From an uncultured Ruminiclostridium sp. (lineage in GTDB: Bacteria; Bacillota; Clostridia; Oscillospirales; Ruminococcaceae): a stretch of 36,913 bases of DNA. The DNA is taken from the NCBI GenBank assembly GCA_947594425.1, contig CANQED010000019.1:1-36913 (forward strand), written 5' to 3'. The notes beneath the pieces are model-generated. The model made no database searches. It saw only the letters and a list, made by a program, of their open reading frames with translations, and was not told where the DNA came from. The position numbers and the translations under genes were made by a program. Positions within the stretch are counted from its first letter, which is position 1; the number at the start of each line of letters is the position of its first letter. Shown one piece after another: positions 8,776 to 23,817 of the stretch.

Positions 8776-10446
8776 ATGCTGACAGATATAGAGATAGCGC
8801 AGAATGCGAAGATGAAGAAGATTAAGGATATAGCAGCACCCCTCGGCATAACCGAGGACGAGCTTATCCCTTACGGGCATTATAAGGCGAAGATATCGCA
8901 GGAGTGCATAGACCGTCTCAGCACTAAGCCGGACGGAAAGCTGATACTTGTAACGGCGATAAATCCCACCCCCGCCGGAGAGGGAAAGACTACCACCTCC
9001 GTCGGTCTCGGACAGGCTATGAATAAAATAGGCAAGAACGCCGTATTGGCTCTGCGCGAGCCGTCGCTCGGCCCCGTATTCGGGATAAAGGGCGGCGCGG
9101 CGGGCGGCGGATACGCTCAGGTAGTGCCTATGGAGGATATAAATCTGCATTTTACGGGGGATATGCACGCGCTGACCTCGGCTAACAATCTGCTGTGCGC
9201 GCTTATCGACAACCATATCCAGCAGGGCAATGCGTTAAACATCGACCCGCGCCGCGTTATGGTGGACAGGTGCCTCGATATGAACGACCGCGCGCTGAGA
9301 AATATAACTATCGGTCTTGGCGGAAAGGTAAACGGTGTGCCCAGAGAGGATCACTTCCGCATAACGGTAGCGACCGAATTTATGGCTATACTGTGCCTCG
9401 CCGAGGATCTGAGCGACCTTAAAAAGCGGCTCGGCAGGATACTCGCGGCATATACTTATGACAATAAGCCCGTTTACGCCGAGGATCTTAAGGCGGTAGG
9501 GGCGCTTACGGCATTGCTAAAAGACGCGATAAACCCCAACCTCGTGCAGACGCTAGAGAATACCCCCGCGATAATCCATGGCGGCCCGTTTGCCAATATA
9601 GCGCACGGCTGCAACAGCATACGCGCCACTAAGCTCGCGCTTAAATTAGGCGACTACGCGATAACCGAGGCGGGATTCGGCTCGGATCTCGGCGCGGAGA
9701 AGTTCTTTGATATTAAGTGCCGCTTTGCGGGACTTAAGCCCGACTGCACGGTGCTAGTAGCGACCATACGCGCGCTTAAATATAACGGCGGCGTGCCTAA
9801 GACTGAGCTGTCGGAAGAAAATCTCGACGCGCTTAAAAAGGGCATAGTTAACCTTAAGACGCATATAGAGAATATGCGCAAGTTCGGCGTACCCGTCGTT
9901 GTCGCGATAAACAAATTCGGCACCGACACCGACGCCGAGATAGAGTACGTGCAAAAGTTCTGCGCCGATATGGGCGTGGAGGTATCTCTCGCTGAGGTAT
10001 TCGCTAAGGGCGGCGAGGGCGGCATAGACCTTGCACAAAAGGTATACGCCGTGATAGATAAGGGCGAGGCTGATTTCCATACGCTGTATGACGAGAAGCT
10101 GAGCATAAAAGAAAAGCTCGAGATACTCGCTAAGGAGATATACCGCGCGGACGGTGTGACCTATACCGCGCAGGCTCAAAAGGCGATAAAGGAGATAGAG
10201 GCGCTCGGCTGCGACCGCATACCCGTGTGCGTGGCAAAGACGCAGTATTCACTGTCGGACGACCCGACCAAGCTCGGCAAGCCCGAGGGCTTTGACATAA
10301 CGATAAGGGATGTAAAATTGTCTAACGGCGCGGGCTTTATCGTCGCGCTGACAGGCGAGATAATGACTATGCCGGGGCTGCCTAAGGCTCCCGCAGCTAA
10401 TAATATAGACGTTGCCGCAAACGGAGAGATAAGCGGGCTGTTCTGA
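8776..10446 (+). CDS. fhs: Formate-tetrahydrofolate ligase
   Basis: 556 aa, the usual family length. It joins formate to tetrahydrofolate with ATP, giving 10-formyl-THF for purine synthesis, formyl-Met and, in acetogens, the methyl branch of the Wood-Ljungdahl pathway. The N-terminal P-loop [10 protein letters not shown] is at residues 65-74, followed by [20 protein letters not shown], the family signature. The ATG at 8776 is preferred over one seven codons upstream because GAAAGGAT lies 5 nt before it. First gene of a five-gene operon; its stop overlaps the tsaE start (TGATG). No other acetogenesis genes are in the window, so a one-carbon biosynthetic role is the safe reading. Confidence 0.97.
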
Positions 10447-10862
10447 TGATGACCTTTATTTCTTCCTCCCCCGAGGAGACTGTAGACATAGGCAGGCAGA
10501 TAGCGTCGTTCTTGCGCCCCGGGAAATGCCTGCTGTTTCGCGGGGAGATGGGCGCGGGAAAGACCCAGCTTACAAAGGGGATAGCGGGCTATTTCGGCGC
10601 GGACGGCGCGCAGAGCCCGACCTTTGCGATAGTAAACGAGTATGAGGGCAGGACGCCCGTGTTCCACTTTGACCTGTTTAGGATAAGCAGCCTGCAGGAA
10701 TTGTACTCGATGGGCTTTTTCGATTATCTTGAGCGCGGCGGGGTGATTGTGATAGAATGGAGCGAGAATATACCCGAGCTTACCGCCGTACTTGAGGATT
10801 ATTGCATAGTCGAGATTGAAAAAACGGGCGACAGCGAGCGCAATATCACCTTGCTCGACTAA
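10446..10862 (+). CDS. tsaE: tRNA t6A37 threonylcarbamoyltransferase complex ATPase TsaE
   Basis: 138 aa. TsaE is the ATPase that cycles the TsaB-TsaD complex making N6-threonylcarbamoyladenosine at tRNA position 37. The Walker A motif GEMGAGKT is at residues 33-40; SPTFAIVNEY and HFDLFRI are the conserved switch segments, and IEWSENIPE is the characteristic C-terminal motif. Its ATG overlaps the fhs stop. tsaB follows 13 bp later, the standard pairing in Bacillota. Confidence 0.95.
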   Translation: MMTFISSSPEETVDIGRQIASFLRPGKCLLFRGEMGAGKTQLTKGIAGYFGADGAQSPTFAIVNEYEGRTPVFHFDLFRISSLQELYSMGFFDYLERGGVIVIEWSENIPELTAVLEDYCIVEIEKTGDSERNITLLD

Positions 10863-10875
10863 GGGGGAAATATAA

Positions 10876-11562
10876 GTGCTGATACTCGGCTTAGATACCG
10901 ACAGCTCGGTGTGCTCGGCGGCGGTATACGATACCGCGCGGGGCGAATTTGCCGCAAGGTATGAGATAAATAACGGGCTTACACACTCGGTGACCTCGGC
11001 GCCGCTTATCGAGGATATGCTGAGGCTAAGCGGCATAAAGCTATCGGATATCGACCTTTTCGCCGTAAGCATGGGACCCGGGTCGTTTACCGGGATAAGG
11101 ATAGGCGTATCCACAATAAAGGGGCTCGCCTACGGGCTGAAAAAGCCTTGCGCGGCGGTGACCTCCTGCCTCGCGGCGGCGTATTCGGTGCAGGTAAAAA
11201 GAGGGATAATATGCGCGGCGCTCGACGCTAAGATAGGGCGGCTGTATTGCGCGATATTTAAGGCGGACGGCGATAAGCTTATAAGGCTAAACGACGAGGC
11301 GTGCCTTACTGTCGACGAGATAGAGGATATGCTTAAAGATTATATAGACGAAGAATTTACTTTTACGGGCGACGGGGCGATGATTTTAGCCGAGAGGCTC
11401 GGCGCGGCATATACACTTCCTAAATGGGCGGCGGCTCAGAGCGCCTGCGGGGTGTGTCTCGCCGCACAGTATACCGAGCCCGTCACACCCGAGAAAATAA
11501 TGCCCTGCTATGTGCAGCTGCCGCAGGCTCAGCGCGAGCTTGAGGCAAGGAAAGGAGAATGA
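10876..11562 (+). CDS. tsaB: tRNA t6A37 threonylcarbamoyltransferase complex dimerisation subunit TsaB
   Basis: 228 aa ASKHA-fold protein that pairs with TsaD (the catalytic subunit, not in the window). The N-terminal LGLDTDSS and the SMGPGSFTGIRIG segment near residue 70 are diagnostic. Translation starts at GTG with AAGGGGG seven bases upstream. The usual neighbour rimI does not follow; instead rpiB starts inside the stop codon (ATGA overlap). Confidence 0.95.
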   Translation: MLILGLDTDSSVCSAAVYDTARGEFAARYEINNGLTHSVTSAPLIEDMLRLSGIKLSDIDLFAVSMGPGSFTGIRIGVSTIKGLAYGLKKPCAAVTSCLAAAYSVQVKRGIICAALDAKIGRLYCAIFKADGDKLIRLNDEACLTVDEIEDMLKDYIDEEFTFTGDGAMILAERLGAAYTLPKWAAAQSACGVCLAAQYTEPVTPEKIMPCYVQLPQAQRELEARKGE

Positions 11563-12002
11563 CTATGCTTGCTGTCGGATGCGACAGAGCGGGCTATCCG
11601 CTAAAGCTTGAGGTGCTTAAGGTCCTTGACGACCTCGGAGAAAAATATATCGACTGCGGCTGTAACGGCGAGACCTGCGACTATCCCGATATCGCCGAAA
11701 CGGTATGCGGAAAGATAAAATCGGGGGAGAGCGAAAAGGGCATACTTATCTGCGGCACGGGGATAGGGATATCTATGGCGGCAAATAAGATAAAGGGCAT
11801 ACGCGCCGCTGTCTGCCATAATGAGTACACCGCTAAATATACCCGACTGCACAACGACGCAAACGTGCTTTGTATGGGCGGACGCGTTATAGGAAGCGGG
11901 GTAGCCGAGGAGATAGTAAGGGTGTTCTTATCCACCGACTTTGAGGGAGGCAGGCACGCCGCCAGAGTAGAAAAGATACACAATTTAGAAAAGGCTGATT
12001 AA
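11559..12002 (+). CDS. rpiB: Ribose-5-phosphate isomerase B
   Basis: 147 aa, typical RpiB length. Interconverts ribose 5-phosphate and ribulose 5-phosphate, feeding PRPP and nucleotide synthesis. CDYPDIAE (40-47) and [11 protein letters not shown] (62-72) with catalytic-base candidate Cys65 match the LacAB/RpiB family, as do [11 protein letters not shown] and the HNDANVL segment. The start overlaps the tsaB stop by 4 bp; a second ATG two codons later is an alternative. The next gene, upp, uses PRPP derived from this product. Confidence 0.94.
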
Positions 12003-19559: not shown

Positions 19560-20675
19560 ATGATGCTTAGACTTGCCGCGCCCTGCCGCTTTGGACTGGA
19601 AAAGACGCTCGCTTATGAGATAAGGCGCGCGGGCGGCGATAATCTCGCCGTCACCGACGGGCGGATAGCCTTTGACGGGGACGAGAGGGTATTGGTGCGC
19701 TGTCTTATCGGGCTGTCTGTAGCTGAGCGCGTGGGGATAGTGATGGGCGAATTTAACGCCGTCACCTTTGACGAGCTATTCGAGGGAGTAAGGGCGATAC
19801 CCGCCGAGCGGTTTGTGGGCAAATTTGACCGCTTTCCCGTAAAGGGGTACAGCCTAAATTCCGTACTTAAGAGCGTGCCCGCCTGTCAGAAGATAGTTAA
19901 AAAGGCGCTGGTCGAGCGGCTGAAGAGCGTGTATCATATCGGCTATTTTCAGGAGACCGAGGCGCTGTATCAATTCAGCTTTTCTATAATGAAAAATAAG
20001 GTGACGCTGACGTTAGACGCGACGGGCGCGTCACTGCATAAGCGCGGGTATCGCGCGCTGTCCAACGCCGCGCCGATAAGGGAGACGCTCGCGGCGGGGA
20101 TAGCGGATATTGCGCATATAAGAGATACCGATATCGTGTGCGACCCGTTTTGCGGGAGCGGCACACTGCTTATCGAGAGCGCGCTCAGGGCGATAAATAA
20201 AGCGCCGGGGCTGGATAGGAGCTTTGACGCGGAGAACTGGGAGATAATTCCGAAAAAGCTTTGGGAGGACGAGCGCGAAAGGGCGCGCGCGGCGATAAAG
20301 ACCGACTGCGCCTTTTGCGCGTACGGCTATGACATAGACGAGCAGGCGGTAAAGTTGACGCTCCATAACGCGCAAAAGGCGGGGGTCGCCGACAGGATAA
20401 GGGTCGAGAGGCGGGATATAAGCGACTTTGCCTGCCCTAAGGGCGTAACCTGCTTTCTGACTAATCCGCCTTACGGAGAGAGGCTGCTCGAGGTCGAGCA
20501 GGCGCGCGACCTTTATAAAAAGCTCGGAGCGGCGCTATTGCCCCTTGACGGCAGGAGGGCGCACGTGATCACGCCCGACGATAAGTTTGAGAGCCTTTTC
20601 GGTAAAAAGGCGGACAAGAACCGAAAGCTGTACAACGGGACGCTTATGTGCAGGCTGTACAGCTATTTTGGGTAA
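19560..20675 (+). CDS. THUMP-domain class I RNA methyltransferase (RlmL/YpsC type)
   Basis: 371 aa SAM-dependent RNA methylase. The N-terminal half (about 1-160) is the ferredoxin-like plus THUMP RNA-binding part. The Rossmann catalytic part shows DPFCGSG at 195-201 (SAM motif I region) and the N302PPY305 active site for methylating an exocyclic base amine. The family includes 23S rRNA m2G2445-type enzymes, so that is the likely target. The 3' part from codon 195 onward is repeated, about 94% identical, at 22650-23183. This copy is the full-length one and presumably functional, though its C-terminal half may have been exchanged in the event that made the repeat. Confidence 0.88.
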   Translation: MMLRLAAPCRFGLEKTLAYEIRRAGGDNLAVTDGRIAFDGDERVLVRCLIGLSVAERVGIVMGEFNAVTFDELFEGVRAIPAERFVGKFDRFPVKGYSLNSVLKSVPACQKIVKKALVERLKSVYHIGYFQETEALYQFSFSIMKNKVTLTLDATGASLHKRGYRALSNAAPIRETLAAGIADIAHIRDTDIVCDPFCGSGTLLIESALRAINKAPGLDRSFDAENWEIIPKKLWEDERERARAAIKTDCAFCAYGYDIDEQAVKLTLHNAQKAGVADRIRVERRDISDFACPKGVTCFLTNPPYGERLLEVEQARDLYKKLGAALLPLDGRRAHVITPDDKFESLFGKKADKNRKLYNGTLMCRLYSYFG

Positions 20676-20701
20676 AATTTGAGAAAATCCGCAAAAACCT
20701 C

Positions 20702-20729
20702 TTGACAAAGCCGAAAAAAGCGGTATAAT
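20702..20729 (+). promoter_or_regulatory. Left-copy rimP promoter, now reading into the insert
   Basis: TTGACA (20702-20707), 16 bp, TATAAT (20724-20729). The spacing is one base shorter than in the right copy (17 bp). It would transcribe the truncated rimP start, the DUF89 fragment and dcd. Confidence 0.7.
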
Positions 20730-20750
20730 ATTACAGTAGAATATGTTAGG

Positions 20751-20778
20751 CTAAAGACTGAGAAATCTCAGTCTTTAG
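20751..20778 (+). promoter_or_regulatory. Leader hairpin, left copy
   Basis: A perfect 12-bp stem, CTAAAGACTGAG with CTCAGTCTTTAG, closed by the loop AAAT. It is not followed by a U-tract. The right copy at 23260-23287 has an identical stem and a different loop. Confidence 0.75.
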
Positions 20779-20822
20779 CGCTTATATGGGGCTATGCGCC
20801 GTATAGCGCGGAGGAAATGCTT

Positions 20823-20885
20823 ATGGCAAAGCAAAAGGGCGGAAAGAAAAACCGCGCCGGGTTCGGTCATCAAAAGGTTTTCTGA
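20823..20885 (+). pseudogene. Truncated rimP 5' fragment
   Basis: The first 12 codons match rimP (MAKQKGGKKNRA), then the frame passes into foreign sequence and stops at TGA after 20 codons. It keeps the rimP ribosome site (GGAGG), so it may act as a short leader peptide upstream of the inserted genes. Confidence 0.8.
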
Positions 20886-21111
20886 AAAGGCAAAGAAAAT
20901 CACATTGGATGCCGATCTGATCATAGCCAAAAGGCAGGGAAATTTTGAAGGATTATTTGGTGAAGGGCTGAACCCCTATTATTTTTTCTTATGCAAATGT
21001 GAATTATTTGTCCGCAGGTTTGGATTAAGGCAATTCGAATCCGTTTTTATAAAAGAAGAAAGAATTGCGTCTTTATTAGGCGTTCATTGCAGAAATGGAG
21101 GAATACGATGA
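20860..21111 (+). pseudogene. C-terminal fragment of a DUF89-family (damage-control phosphatase) protein
   Basis: From the repeat boundary an open frame encodes about 83 residues with DADLIIAKRQGNFEGLFG and [14 protein letters not shown], which I recognise as the C-terminal segment of DUF89/ARMT1-type metal-dependent phosphatases. The N-terminal two thirds are missing and no proper start exists. Codon use (ATT, TTA, GGA) differs from host genes. Its stop overlaps the dcd start (ATGA), implying that DUF89 and dcd were coupled in the donor genome. Confidence 0.65.
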
Positions 21112-21644
21112 TACTCTCAGACAAAACGATAATGAAAATGTTGGAAGAACGGACGCTGATCGTGACGCCCCTTGAGGCGGAACAGATACAGCCGGCCAGT
21201 ATCGATATCCGGATTGGAAATACATATAGCATTGTGGAGGATTCGCCGTCTGGGATTATTGGTTTGAGCAGAGAGATCCCATACAAGACGATCACCACAG
21301 ACAAGTATATTCTGTTGCCGGGGCAGTTTGTGCTGGCCACCACAATGGAATATTTAGAATTGCCTGATGACCTTACCGCATTTGTTGAAGGACGAAGTTC
21401 TCTGGGGAGAATGGGACTTTTTATTCAGAACGCGGGCTGGGTGGATCCGGGCTTTAAGGGAGAGATTACACTGGAATTGTTCAACGCCAACCGGTATGCC
21501 ATTGAGCTGCATGCGGGACGAAGGGTCGGACAACTGGTATTTGCCGGACTGGATGATCATGCGCTGCATCCGTACAAAGGGAAATATCAGGGGCAAAGAG
21601 GTGCCACAGGCTCAAGGGTATATATGGATAAAGATTCTGATTAA
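21108..21644 (+). CDS. dcd: dCTP deaminase
   Basis: 178 aa. Dcd deaminates dCTP to dUTP, the source of dUMP for thymidylate; some members also hydrolyse d[14 protein letters not shown] (93-103) is the family active-site segment, [16 protein letters not shown] (109-124) carries the candidate catalytic Glu123, and the tail [12 protein letters not shown] matches the C-terminal lid. AGW rather than a histidine there resembles bifunctional deaminase/dUTPases, but I cannot decide between the two. The ATG at 21108 has GGAGG 6 nt upstream. The gene looks intact, is AT-rich and carries foreign codon usage, and is probably transcribed from the duplicated rimP promoter. Confidence 0.9.
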
Positions 21645-21946
21645 GATTTCTTATGGGAAGATCCATCGTAAAGGAATTTAAGGGCGCGGACAAAGTTGGA
21701 TCCAAAACAGCGGCTTATTTATTAGAAAGGTTTGGAACACTTGAAAACATCCTTGAAAACGCGAAAAAAATCGAAAGACCGTCTATAAAAGACTCCATTA
21801 TCAGGAATACGGATCGACTGAGAAGAAATTATAAGATTATTAAATTAGGAAACTCAACGCCGCTGCCGTTTGCTTTGGATTGCTTCGCCTATCGCTTTGC
21901 AGGCTTGAGCACGGCCAATGTTTTAAAAGGAATAGGGTTATATTGA
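21641..21946 (+). pseudogene. C-terminal fragment of a 5'-3' exonuclease (H3TH region)
   Basis: The frame opens after a stop at 21638 and contains ADKVGSKTAAYLLERFGTLE, the helix-three-turn-helix DNA-binding segment of Pol I-type 5'-3' exonucleases, then a C-terminal tail ending NVLKGIGLY. The N-terminal PIN nuclease domain with its metal-binding aspartates is absent. The only ATG (21653) has no ribosome site. It reads as a remnant joined almost directly to the dcd stop codon. The identification rests on one motif region, so confidence is moderate. Confidence 0.5.
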
Positions 21947-21957
21947 CAGATTTTCTA

Positions 21958-22011
21958 TTTGTATCAAAATCGCAAAGAACATAGATATAATCTTGCAGAG
22001 TTTGATACAAA
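21958..22011. repeat. Two-armed inverted repeat (hairpin element)
   Basis: Outer arms TTTGTATCAAA (21958-21968) and TTTGATACAAA (22001-22011) are perfect. Inner arms GCAAAGA (21972-21978) and TCTTGC (21991-21996) pair with one extra A bulged on the left. The 12-base loop is 21979-21990. No U-tract follows. The left half recurs at 22627-22651. Confidence 0.7.
21961..21985. repeat. 25-bp direct repeat, copy 1
   Basis: An exact 25-base match to 22627-22651, starting GTATCAAAATCG. It ends at the centre of the hairpin loop. The two copies bracket the NUDIX gene. Confidence 0.9.
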
Positions 22012-22090
22012 ACCGAGAAATAATTGAAAAGTGCGCCTTTGCGGTGTAATTACCCCCTGCGGTGTAAAACTGCTTATCACTTGCAGACGG

Positions 22091-22118
22091 TTGTCTTTCT
22101 CAAAATTTACGGTATACT
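22091..22118 (+). promoter_or_regulatory. Promoter of the NUDIX gene
   Basis: TTGTCT (22091-22096), 16 bp, TATACT (22113-22118). It lies inside the insert, so the NUDIX gene carries its own promoter. Confidence 0.6.
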
Positions 22119-22154
22119 GAATCAGAAAATCGGGATTAGCGGAGGTTTAACAGG

Positions 22155-22601
22155 TTGAGAGCACCATTTCAGATATTGGCAATTCCTTTCAGGAAAACAG
22201 CTTCGAGAGAGATGGAGTTTTGTGTTTTTCATCGCTCGGATTTGGATCAGTGGCAGTTTATTGCCGGCGGCGGTGAAGATGACGAAACGCCGATAGAGGC
22301 GGCAGTCAGAGAAATTTCAGAAGAGACAGGGATAAAAACAAACAGTATTATAAAGCTGACGTCTATGGCGTATATTCCCGCGAATGTTATTTCGGAACGA
22401 CACAGGAAATATTGGGCAAAGAACACCTATGTTATTCCCGAATATCATTTTGCGTTTGAGTGTGTTTCAGACATAAAGTTATCCAATGAACACATCGGTT
22501 CCGAGTGGCTGAGTTATAAAGACGCTATGGCGCGCCTGACTTGGGATTCAAATAAAACAGCTTTATATGAATTGCGCTGTCGGTTGCTTGAAGAGGTCTA
22601 A
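22155..22601 (+). CDS. NUDIX hydrolase
   Basis: 148 aa. NUDIX enzymes cleave nucleoside diphosphates linked to another group. The full NUDIX box (GX5EX7REUXEEXGU) spans residues 38-60 with Glu44, Arg52, Glu53, Glu56 and Glu57. WQFIAGGGEDDE and the compact single-domain layout resemble dihydroneopterin triphosphate or dNTP pyrophosphatases, but the substrate is not fixed by sequence. Translation starts at TTG (22155) with GGAGG at 22141-22145; no ATG fits. AT-rich, with codon usage unlike the host. It is the second intact gene of the insert. Confidence 0.88.
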   Translation: MRAPFQILAIPFRKTASREMEFCVFHRSDLDQWQFIAGGGEDDETPIEAAVREISEETGIKTNSIIKLTSMAYIPANVISERHRKYWAKNTYVIPEYHFAFECVSDIKLSNEHIGSEWLSYKDAMARLTWDSNKTALYELRCRLLEEV

Positions 22602-22626
22602 ACCGATAAAGAAAGGTTTTTTGCTC

Positions 22627-22651
22627 GTATCAAAATCGCAAAGAACATAGA
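22627..22651. repeat. 25-bp direct repeat, copy 2, at the right edge of the insert
   Basis: Identical to 21961-21985, and equal to the left half of the hairpin element. It joins the methyltransferase fragment with a shared GA (22650-22651). Confidence 0.9.
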
Positions 22652-23183
22652 CCCGTTTTGCGGGAGCGGCACATTGCTTATCGAGAGTGCGCTGAGGGCG
22701 ATAAATAAAGCGCCGGGGCTGGATAGGAGCTTTGACGCGGAGAGCTGGGAGATAATCCCGAAAGAGCTATGGGAAGACGAGCGCGAAAGGGCGCGCGCGG
22801 CGATAAAGACCGACTGCGATTTTTGCGCGTACGGCTATGACATAGACGAGCAGGCGATAAAGCTGACGCTGCATAACGCGCAAAAGGCGGGGGTCGCCGA
22901 CAGGATAAGGGTCGAGAGGCGGGATATAAGCGACTTTGCCAGCCCTAAGGGCGTAACCTGCTTTCTGACCAATCCGCCTTACGGAGAGAGGCTGCTCGAG
23001 GTCGAGCAGGCGCGCGAGCTTTATAAAAGGCTCGGAGCGGCGCTGTTGCCCCTTGACGGCAGAAGAGCGCACATAATAACGCCCGACGATAAATTTGAGA
23101 CCCTTTTCGGTAAAAAGGCGGACAAGAACCGAAAGCTGTACAACGGTACGCTTATGTGCAGGCTGTACAGCTATTTTGGGTAA
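22650..23183 (+). pseudogene. 3' fragment of the THUMP RNA methyltransferase gene
   Basis: This encodes residues equivalent to 195-371 of the gene at 19560-20675, in frame and with an intact stop, but lacks the RNA-binding half and has no start with a ribosome site. Nine amino acids differ from the full-length copy, mostly conservative exchanges (V/I, D/E, K/R, S/T), and DPFCGSG and NPPY are kept. This pattern suggests the sequence diverged while part of a functional gene. Confidence 0.9.
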
Positions 23184-23209
23184 AATTTGAGAAAATCCGC
23201 AAAAACCTC

Positions 23210-23238
23210 TTGACAAAGCCGAAAAAAAGAGGTATAAT
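23210..23238 (+). promoter_or_regulatory. Promoter of the rimP-nusA-infB operon
   Basis: Perfect consensus TTGACA (23210-23215) and TATAAT (23233-23238) with optimal 17-bp spacing, as expected for a strong housekeeping operon. Confidence 0.85.
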
Positions 23239-23259
23239 ATAACGGAAGAATATGTTAGG

Positions 23260-23287
23260 CTAAAGACTGAGTTCACTCAGTCTTTAG
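23260..23287 (+). promoter_or_regulatory. Leader hairpin of the rimP-nusA operon
   Basis: A perfect 12-bp stem (CTAAAGACTGAG / CTCAGTCTTTAG) with a TTCA tetraloop, about 45 nt upstream of the rimP start. No U-tract follows, so it is not a standard terminator. It could be a site for NusA-linked autoregulation or RNase processing; both are inferences. Confidence 0.75.
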
Positions 23288-23331
23288 TGCTTATATGGGA
23301 CTATGCGCCGTATAATGCGGAGGAAATGCTT

Positions 23332-23817
23332 ATGGCAAAGCAAAAAGGCGGGAAGAAGAACCGCGCCGCCGAGGTCGAGCGGGAGGCTATGGAGCTTGTC
23401 GCGCCGATAGTAGAGCGGTACGGGTACGAGCTTTGGGATATCATATTTGAAAAAGAGGGCTCGATGTGGTATCTTAAGGTGCTTTTTGACAAGCCCGACG
23501 GCGGGATAAGCGACGACGAGTGCGAGGCGGTAACCGCCCCGATTAACGAGGCTATAGACCGTATGCCGAGCATAGACCTTATCGACGTGGCGGAGGTCGG
23601 CTCCCCGGGGCTCGACCGCGCATTACGAAAGCCCGAGCATTTTCGGCAGCTGATGGGACAGCCGATAAGGATAGCCTTACGGTTAGACGGCGGCGATATG
23701 CGATATATAAGCGGCACACTGTGCGGCTATGACGGAGATAATGTCAGCGTGGTATGCGAGGGTAAAGAAGAGAGCTTTCCTCTTTCACGCTGCAAGAGAA
23801 TAAATCTTGACCTTTAA
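23332..23817 (+). CDS. rimP: Ribosome maturation factor RimP
   Basis: 161 aa. RimP assists 30S subunit assembly. YGYELWDIIFEKEGSMWYLKVLFDKPDGGIS is the N-terminal domain, and VGSPGLDRALRKPEHF is the family signature. The ATG at 23332 is chosen over one two codons upstream because GGAGG (23319-23323) is 8 nt before it. The first 12 codons are shared with the truncated copy at 20823. It starts the operon that continues through ribF. Confidence 0.95.
   Translation: MAKQKGGKKNRAAEVEREAMELVAPIVERYGYELWDIIFEKEGSMWYLKVLFDKPDGGISDDECEAVTAPINEAIDRMPSIDLIDVAEVGSPGLDRALRKPEHFRQLMGQPIRIALRLDGGDMRYISGTLCGYDGDNVSVVCEGKEESFPLSRCKRINLDL

Follow-up and report, generated by a model that had tools for sequence, protein, structure and literature searches.

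The window analyzed here is a 36,913-nucleotide stretch of an uncultured Ruminiclostridium sp. (assembly GCA_947594425.1, contig CANQED010000019.1), in which a 664-bp NUDIX gene unit (positions 21986 to 22649) lies between the genes rlmL and rimP. Our analysis suggests that this unit is a mobile gene cassette, the ends of which would be the two arms of an attP-like site centered on the dinucleotide GA. Such cassettes sit singly or in arrays at other loci of the same gut Clostridia family, and their sites match the ends of prophages that belong to Candidatus (Ca.) Heliusvirales or are related to it; the serine recombinases that these prophages carry in tandem would target Asp-Pro codons of methyltransferase genes. 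We consider it quite probable that a serine-recombinase-type cassette came from a relative with an occupied rlmL and that one recombination then placed it beside an intact rlmL. As for the wider system, we lean, by a modest degree, toward an integron-like system of gut Clostridia, in which cassettes would copy phage attP arms, be moved in trans by the tandem recombinases of phages, form arrays, and dock at Asp-Pro codons of DNA and rRNA methyltransferases.

The NUDIX unit is bracketed by arms of an attP-like site

The unit and its borders comprise the following features.

21958..22011, plus strand: candidate joint attP-like site (26-bp left arm, GA at 21984-21985, 26-bp right arm), which ends the upstream unit and opens the NUDIX cassette
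21986..22649, plus strand: putative NUDIX gene cassette, 664 bp, with the same ends in genomes G187, G195, G342, G405, and G472
22155..22601, plus strand: NUDIX hydrolase gene, the only open reading frame (ORF) of at least 70 amino acids on the plus strand of the cassette
22625..22651, plus strand: closing left arm plus GA, forming the cassette junction with rlmL motif I

Two of the features that define these borders were missed by an earlier reading of the same DNA (the original prediction). An exact 25-bp direct repeat (21961 to 21985 and 22627 to 22651, GA included) brackets the NUDIX gene, and the region 21958 to 22011 is a 54-bp imperfect palindrome (26 + GA + 26); the 76-base stretch holding it folds as single-stranded DNA better than 200 of 200 shuffled sequences (z -5.2). 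The palindrome shows the length of about 50 bp and the imperfect inverted repeat around a central dinucleotide that are expected of an attP-like site, and GA is common to the site and to its targets at the rlmL junction and other methylase junctions. Judged by its sequence, it may represent an attP-like site of a large serine recombinase. No recombinase gene belonging to the NUDIX cassette was detected among its ORFs and Pfam matches; phage structural and lysis genes are absent from its 664 bp, where NUDIX is the one long ORF, and the four insert ORFs identified by Pfam include no conjugation module. An integron attC identity was considered and rejected, because there is no GTT core and the NUDIX copies are bounded by GA instead of the G/TTRRRY exchange.

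The same unit recurs in unrelated surroundings

By searching 297 genomes of the family, we found the NUDIX unit arm to arm in G187 and G195; it is also present in the same-genus genomes G342 and G472 and, within an array, in G405. All six copies measure 662 to 664 bp, start after GA, and end with the closing arm followed by GA. The other five are 91 to 98% identical to the copy in the window, whereas their 150-bp flanks are only 43 to 57% identical to those of the window, giving six different flank pairs, and the RlmL proteins of their hosts are only 52 to 71% identical to that of the window. Units so similar in hosts so diverged, and between unrelated flanks, indicate horizontal movement. This recurrence in unrelated places points to a little-noticed route of gene transfer among gut bacteria.

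A search of 396 genomes of the family for the right arm together with its neighboring bases found it with other cargo in 28 (E <= 0.01; 20 strong matches of about 1e-11 or better and 8 between 0.001 and 0.01). A class-wide search returned 6 of 391 genomes, three of them from other families, including one with only 27 bases; these right-arm searches scored at most two candidates per genome, and copies per genome are lower bounds. Scanning of 34 loci yielded 18 units with both a right and a left arm, ranging from 442 to 1,420 bp. Same-orientation arrays exist, such as that in G405 with five consecutive right arms, and adjoining units share one GA. Ten cargo proteins were compared with Pfam, nine from cassettes and one from a prophage-like region of the window's own genome (L402). 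The matches were HIT, MazG, a helix-turn-helix (HTH) domain with a GyrI-like domain, two GNAT, FMN reductase, TfoX_N (in a unit of which one end only was located), APH-like, and, in L402, NUDIX; one protein was unmatched. A short-pattern scan of 41 genomes stayed mostly near the control level, and a 119-base probe gave no match among plasmids.

Two more cassette loci lie in the window's genome (L007, 5053 to 6467, and L008, 5245 to 6566, on G000:C5); named by eye, their cargo includes ORFs that resemble GNAT and cytidine deaminase genes, together with an HTH gene that is seemingly disrupted relative to its counterpart in G405. In G342, a CRISPR-like repeat tract beside apparent cas4, cas1, and cas2 genes (L188, 162 to 4701, on G342:C8, also recognized by eye) lies a few kilobases from a cassette array.

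Insertion favors one codon of methyltransferase genes

Taking all loci collected, we distinguished 60 right arms, 21 of which are preceded by a left arm, as in an array, and 39 of which are not. In 25 of these 39, an ORF of at least 60 amino acids ends at the arm in the frame that places GA at an Asp codon; the census filter itself required GA, and the 25 mix cassette starts with prophage ends. Methyltransferase models are matched by 19 of the 25 ORFs, with 10 N6_Mtase (three of them below Pfam's cutoff), 3 MmeI, 1 RlmL, and 5 type III matches. The N6_Mtase alignment ends at profile position 50 to 52 in 8 of the 10, the exceptions being L163 (position 47) and L157 (position 43), and the methylase fragment that follows the prophage-like end in the window's genome begins at position 52 of this profile. 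From the other side, a left arm leads into D-P codons in rlmL of the window, G321, and G471, in the motif-I remnant of G192, in the N6_N4_Mtase gene at L316, and in L317; in G195, G342, and G472 it is followed by GACCC and then by short frames only. At the methylase junctions, the insertion interrupts a methyltransferase gene and is accompanied by a direct repeat of very few bases, as with serine-integrase elements in hsdM. Some ends lie outside methyltransferases, as the left arms of L140 and L155 lead into a short hairpin-like stretch and that of L120 into a gene resembling an ABC ATPase.

The rlmL locus was seen both empty and occupied, in cases gathered from several searches that do not amount to a census. 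In the same-genus genome G013, rlmL motif I is uninterrupted and rimP follows about 170 bp downstream, which is the empty, contiguous rimP-methyltransferase junction that the original prediction proposed looking for in relatives. In G321, rlmL is split over two contigs, with residues 3 to 197 ending at GA plus the right arm and residues 194 to 370 following the left arm plus GA, and in G471 only the C-part was detected, after a variant arm and cut at the same motif-I codon as in the window. The rlmL C-part of G107, likewise cut at this codon, follows an arm of another type, which is also the one found where the tandem-recombinase region in the window's genome terminates; as the N-part ends upstream of motif I, only the C-part junction counts in this case. 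In G192, an intact rlmL is followed by the body of a cassette and then by a left arm with a short motif-I remnant, an architecture that resembles that of the window. The description of the locus as a neutral capture site was therefore too weak, because rlmL motif I is a recurrent target at which the gene is cut in G321 and G471.

The arms could also be read as terminal inverted repeats of about 20 to 25 bp belonging to transposon-like units that are moved by a DDE transposase with a 2-bp (GA) target duplication. The inverted, mostly GA-flanked ends and the insertions outside methyltransferase genes would suit such units, but the strong preference for methyltransferases at one codon (19/25), the single GA shared by adjoining units, and the matching arms at phage ends beside serine recombinases (described below) make this explanation unlikely.

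Matching arms lie at phage ends beside tandem serine recombinases

The 119-base probe matched three phage records, all of Ca. Heliusvirales, each of which has the right arm as well as two recombinase genes in tandem. In two of the three, the right arm cuts an MmeI-type methylase gene, and the other end of PV036426 carries the left arm followed by GACCC. By the phage right arm lie accessory genes and two large tandem ORFs, both of which are Resolvase-Recombinase-Zn_ribbon proteins in PV036416 and in the viral contig L315; the other two phage records carry relatives of both PV036416 recombinases. The PV036416 recombinases have tandem counterparts on contig C1 of the window's genome, with identities of 47.5 and 62.9%; the arm scan of 15 recombinase regions, C1 among them, gave weak matches only, and a looser look at C1 revealed an arm there. 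One of the recombinases has 498 viral relatives, and of the 80 best, 27 show a right arm, some perhaps by chance under the looser one-strand filter applied. By this association, phage-type serine recombinases may be the enzymes that move the cassettes, presumably in trans and possibly by way of circles.

Several observations weigh against this account. No right arm was detected at 53 of the 80 viral recombinase loci with the set filter on one strand, and 30 recombinase loci that were scanned gave no convincing arms. An arm-to-arm array junction occurs in 0 of 87 viral loci (L315 to L401, in which L315 and L322 are one contig and L319 and L321 come from opposite ends of a single record), so the idea that phages carry cassettes finds no support. 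PF07508 was matched in 20 of the 21 genomes searched, and the one without a match is the cassette carrier G195, where the enzyme would have to work in trans, belong to a different type, or be missing through later loss. In addition, 6 of the 25 ORFs upstream of right arms match no methyltransferase model (L352, L359, L315, L377, L165, and L126), and some arms in an unfiltered scan lack an adjoining GA (L185, L191, L193, and the left arms of L008 and L150). Within the window, the DUF89, dCTP deaminase, and exonuclease pieces upstream of the NUDIX unit have no cassette start of their own, and nothing beyond illegitimate joining explains the rimP/DUF89 junction.

In the window's genome, a prophage-like region with the tandem recombinases (L402 on G000:C1, 4864 to 12672) ends at N6_Mtase motif I, and a GNAT-like gene and a NUDIX gene lie between the recombinases and the site (10402 to 11860). 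A prophage end bearing such genes raises the question of whether the units are independently decayed prophages, in which deletions left two att halves and one moron gene with no cassette mobility; some of the right arms counted are indeed prophage ends. However, six genomes share one NUDIX unit with identical boundaries between six different flank pairs, which requires movement after such an origin, as do arrays of several different units, and we regard independent decay as improbable.

A left-arm-like 25-mer (TTGTATCAAAGACA..TTTACATA) was also observed directly against ORFs of large serine recombinases, the junction reading D|EGIS or D|DGxSG (L350:5646, L351:12347, L365, L387, L390, and L345), the rest of the ORF being Resolvase-Recombinase in the two loci checked. 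It represents either prophages inserted in other recombinase genes or an att-like stretch inside a recombinase gene.

The long repeat probably records an occupied and an intact rlmL

The NUDIX unit lies within a longer arrangement, the main parts of which are as follows.

19560..20675, plus strand: intact rlmL-like 23S rRNA methyltransferase gene (ORF list, Pfam)
20142..20859, plus strand: left copy of the long repeat, from the rlmL motif-I Asp codon 195 to the stop, with the rimP promoter and 12 rimP codons
20702..20729, plus strand: likely rimP promoter of the left copy, TTGACA-16-TATAAT, 12/12 (consensus match only)
20823..20858, plus strand: first 12 codons of rimP, then the junction to foreign DNA
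22650..23183, plus strand: headless rlmL 3' part, starting D-P-F-C-G-S-G (Pfam, copy comparison)
22650..23368, plus strand: right copy of the long repeat
23210..23238, plus strand: likely rimP promoter of the right copy, 12/12 (consensus match only)
23287..23817, plus strand: complete rimP, MAKQ... start at 23332 (ORF list, Pfam)

The direct repeat of about 718 bp reported in the original prediction was confirmed far beyond chance, with a left copy of 718 bp and a right copy of 719 bp that differ by 41 mismatches and 1 gap (94.2% identity), close to the 40 or so differences claimed. The methyltransferase gene is RlmL-like (PF22020, THUMP, and PF01170), and rlmL and rimP are both intact, as had been stated. 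The two inner boundaries also hold, since the left copy ends 12 codons into rimP and the right copy begins at methyltransferase codon 195, exactly at the GA of the motif I Asp codon (GA-CCC; D-PFCGSG) and directly after the 25-base arm. The coding part of the repeat contains 26 nucleotide differences in 534 nucleotides, causing 9 amino-acid changes. Assigned by lineage, 12 changes fall to the left copy (8 synonymous and 4 nonsynonymous) and 11 to the right copy (7 and 4), with 3 unclear. Because the counts of derived changes and their ratios are similar, both copies probably evolved as working genes and came together later, and this apparent shared constraint supports the earlier suggestion that the divergence arose in a working gene rather than by pseudogene decay in place.

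Duplication in this genome followed by such decay would fit a right rlmL copy that has no start. Nevertheless, the changes are evenly split and similarly constrained, the 4 nonsynonymous among 11 right-lineage changes depart from an assumed neutral 75% (P = 0.008), and foreign cassette DNA lies between the copies, so that we hold this origin to be extremely improbable. The differences are distributed along the whole repeat, 1 to 6 per 60 bp, and therefore the crossover point that a divergence plot had been thought able to reveal is not visible. A strain matching the right copy better had likewise been suggested, and no donor with the right-copy allele was present among 71 same-genus genomes.

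We propose that in a relative of this bacterium an array occupied rlmL at the motif-I Asp codon, comparable to G321 and G471, and that one later recombination brought the right-hand part of this locus up against an intact rlmL followed by the first 12 rimP codons, with transfer presumably running from the relative to this bacterium. In the product, rlmL and rimP would both be intact, and between them would lie foreign DNA with the NUDIX cassette at its end, followed by the headless 3' part of rlmL from GA onward. For the last step there are three candidates: a circle may have integrated by the Campbell route, a linear fragment may have been imported through homology in rimP at one end and illegitimate joining at rimP codon 12 at the other, or crossing-over may have been unequal; since all three yield the same product, the data do not separate them.

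In the original prediction, Campbell integration was the entire explanation, with a random circle bearing a 0.7-kb homologous fragment and a right boundary of no significance. Two copies flanking foreign DNA, both neighbors whole, and the empty junction in G013 are what this would leave, but the right boundary is a site-specific junction of arm, GA, and motif I, in which the GA belongs to the motif-I Asp codon, and this junction recurs in rlmL of G321 and G471, in hsdM, in other methylase genes, and in phages. As a full account, Campbell integration is thus largely refuted and very unlikely, surviving only as one of the three possible last steps. The arrangement might also be an assembly chimera, given that the locus is known from an assembly alone and that a mixed sample would supply exactly these two alleles, one occupied and one empty. 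However, the genome is 99.95% complete with 0.2% contamination, and G192 independently shows a like architecture (intact rlmL, cassette, and motif-I remnant), which leaves little credence for a chimera.

Relation to known systems

Integron gene cassettes are single-gene units with a recombination site that form same-orientation arrays and carry cargo such as GNAT and NUDIX genes. They exchange at the attC core G/TT, whereas the units described here would exchange at GA; their site, unlike that of integrons, matches phage ends beside serine recombinases, and no fixed platform was seen in the loci examined. SCC elements use two large serine recombinases, CcrA and CcrB, target the rRNA methyltransferase gene rlmH, and occur as tandem elements, but insertion of SCC preserves an intact rlmH 3' end, the ccr genes are part of the element, and its size greatly exceeds that of the present cassettes.

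According to passages of two reports on streptococcal integrative and conjugative elements (ICEs), serine-integrase triplets insert in hsdM, mutT, or traG and a single serine integrase in rumA, and the triplet elements show 2- to 8-bp direct repeats (PMC4701971, PMC7563491). Insertion within dispensable methyltransferase genes is common to those ICEs (hsdM and rumA) and to our loci. The ICEs are, however, whole conjugative elements with their own integrases, whereas here the mobile unit would be a cassette of 0.4 to 1.4 kb that lacks a recombinase, and the genes interrupted at the arms also include rlmL and methylase genes of the MmeI-like and type III kinds. Among clostridial elements, passages of PMC4430133 and PMC5704250 describe a central GA in the Bacillus subtilis targets of Tn5397 (TndX), a preference of Tn5397 for Fic-coding DNA in Clostridioides difficile, and recombination between 2-bp identical sequences for Tn4451 (TnpX); Tn4451 and Tn5397 are large serine recombinase elements that encode their own recombinase, which the NUDIX cassette does not. 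Recombination of attP with attP is reported in PMC3783163 for LI integrase, A118, and Ccr, and it would allow arrays. In Ca. Heliusviridae/Heliusvirales (PMC9226167), one end of the phage has a nearly identical right arm, adjoining bases included, and the opposite end has the left arm (PV036426), but the NUDIX cassette, unlike these prophages, has no phage genes; the main text of PMC9226167 never mentions a recombinase, integrase, methyltransferase, or attachment site.

A literature search covering titles and the openings of abstracts, with preprints and most subscription papers outside its scope, found no description of recombinase-free, att-flanked single-gene cassettes. As far as this literature goes, serine-integrase elements in hsdM and rumA are known and such cassettes appear to be new. 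If our account is true, gut Clostridia would possess a route of cassette exchange with no integron integrase and with a link to a widespread phage group, and the exact breakpoint that keeps recurring in methyltransferase genes, which could otherwise pass for scattered gene decay, would have an explanation. A target defined at the codon level would make the enzyme specificity directly testable, and the arms would provide a search key for cargo. Since each insertion cuts the gene of a restriction-modification or rRNA-modifying enzyme, the traffic of phages and cassettes could directly alter host defense.

Other features of the insert and of the rlmL-rimP region

The foreign, AT-rich character ascribed to the insert is evident in 500-bp windows, with a GC fraction of 0.39 to 0.46 compared with 0.46 to 0.60, mostly above 0.5, outside. 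Upstream of the joint site, it carries three further genes or gene fragments.

20860..21111, plus strand: DUF89/ARMT1-like gene, C-terminal fragment (Pfam PF01937)
21087..21644, plus strand: complete dCTP deaminase gene, ATG at 21108 (Pfam PF22769)
21653..21946, plus strand: 5'-3' exonuclease gene, C-terminal fragment (Pfam PF01367)

In G371, a second rlmL C-terminal piece (residues 260 to 370; G371:C12:70453-70785) lies directly 3' of an intact rlmL. At L010, L011, and L012, EAL/HDOD-like and PAS-GGDEF-like genes, named by eye, lie between rlmL and rimP of related genomes; this EAL-like/PAS-GGDEF-like DNA of about 3 kb was considered as cassettes and rejected, as it looks like a native difference in neighbors. 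Finally, a hairpin-like palindrome, CTAAAGACTGAG...CTCAGTCTTTAG, is located immediately 5' of rimP in both copies of the long repeat (20751 to 20779 and 23259 to 23287), with an altered loop, and it is possibly a leader element of the rimP operon.

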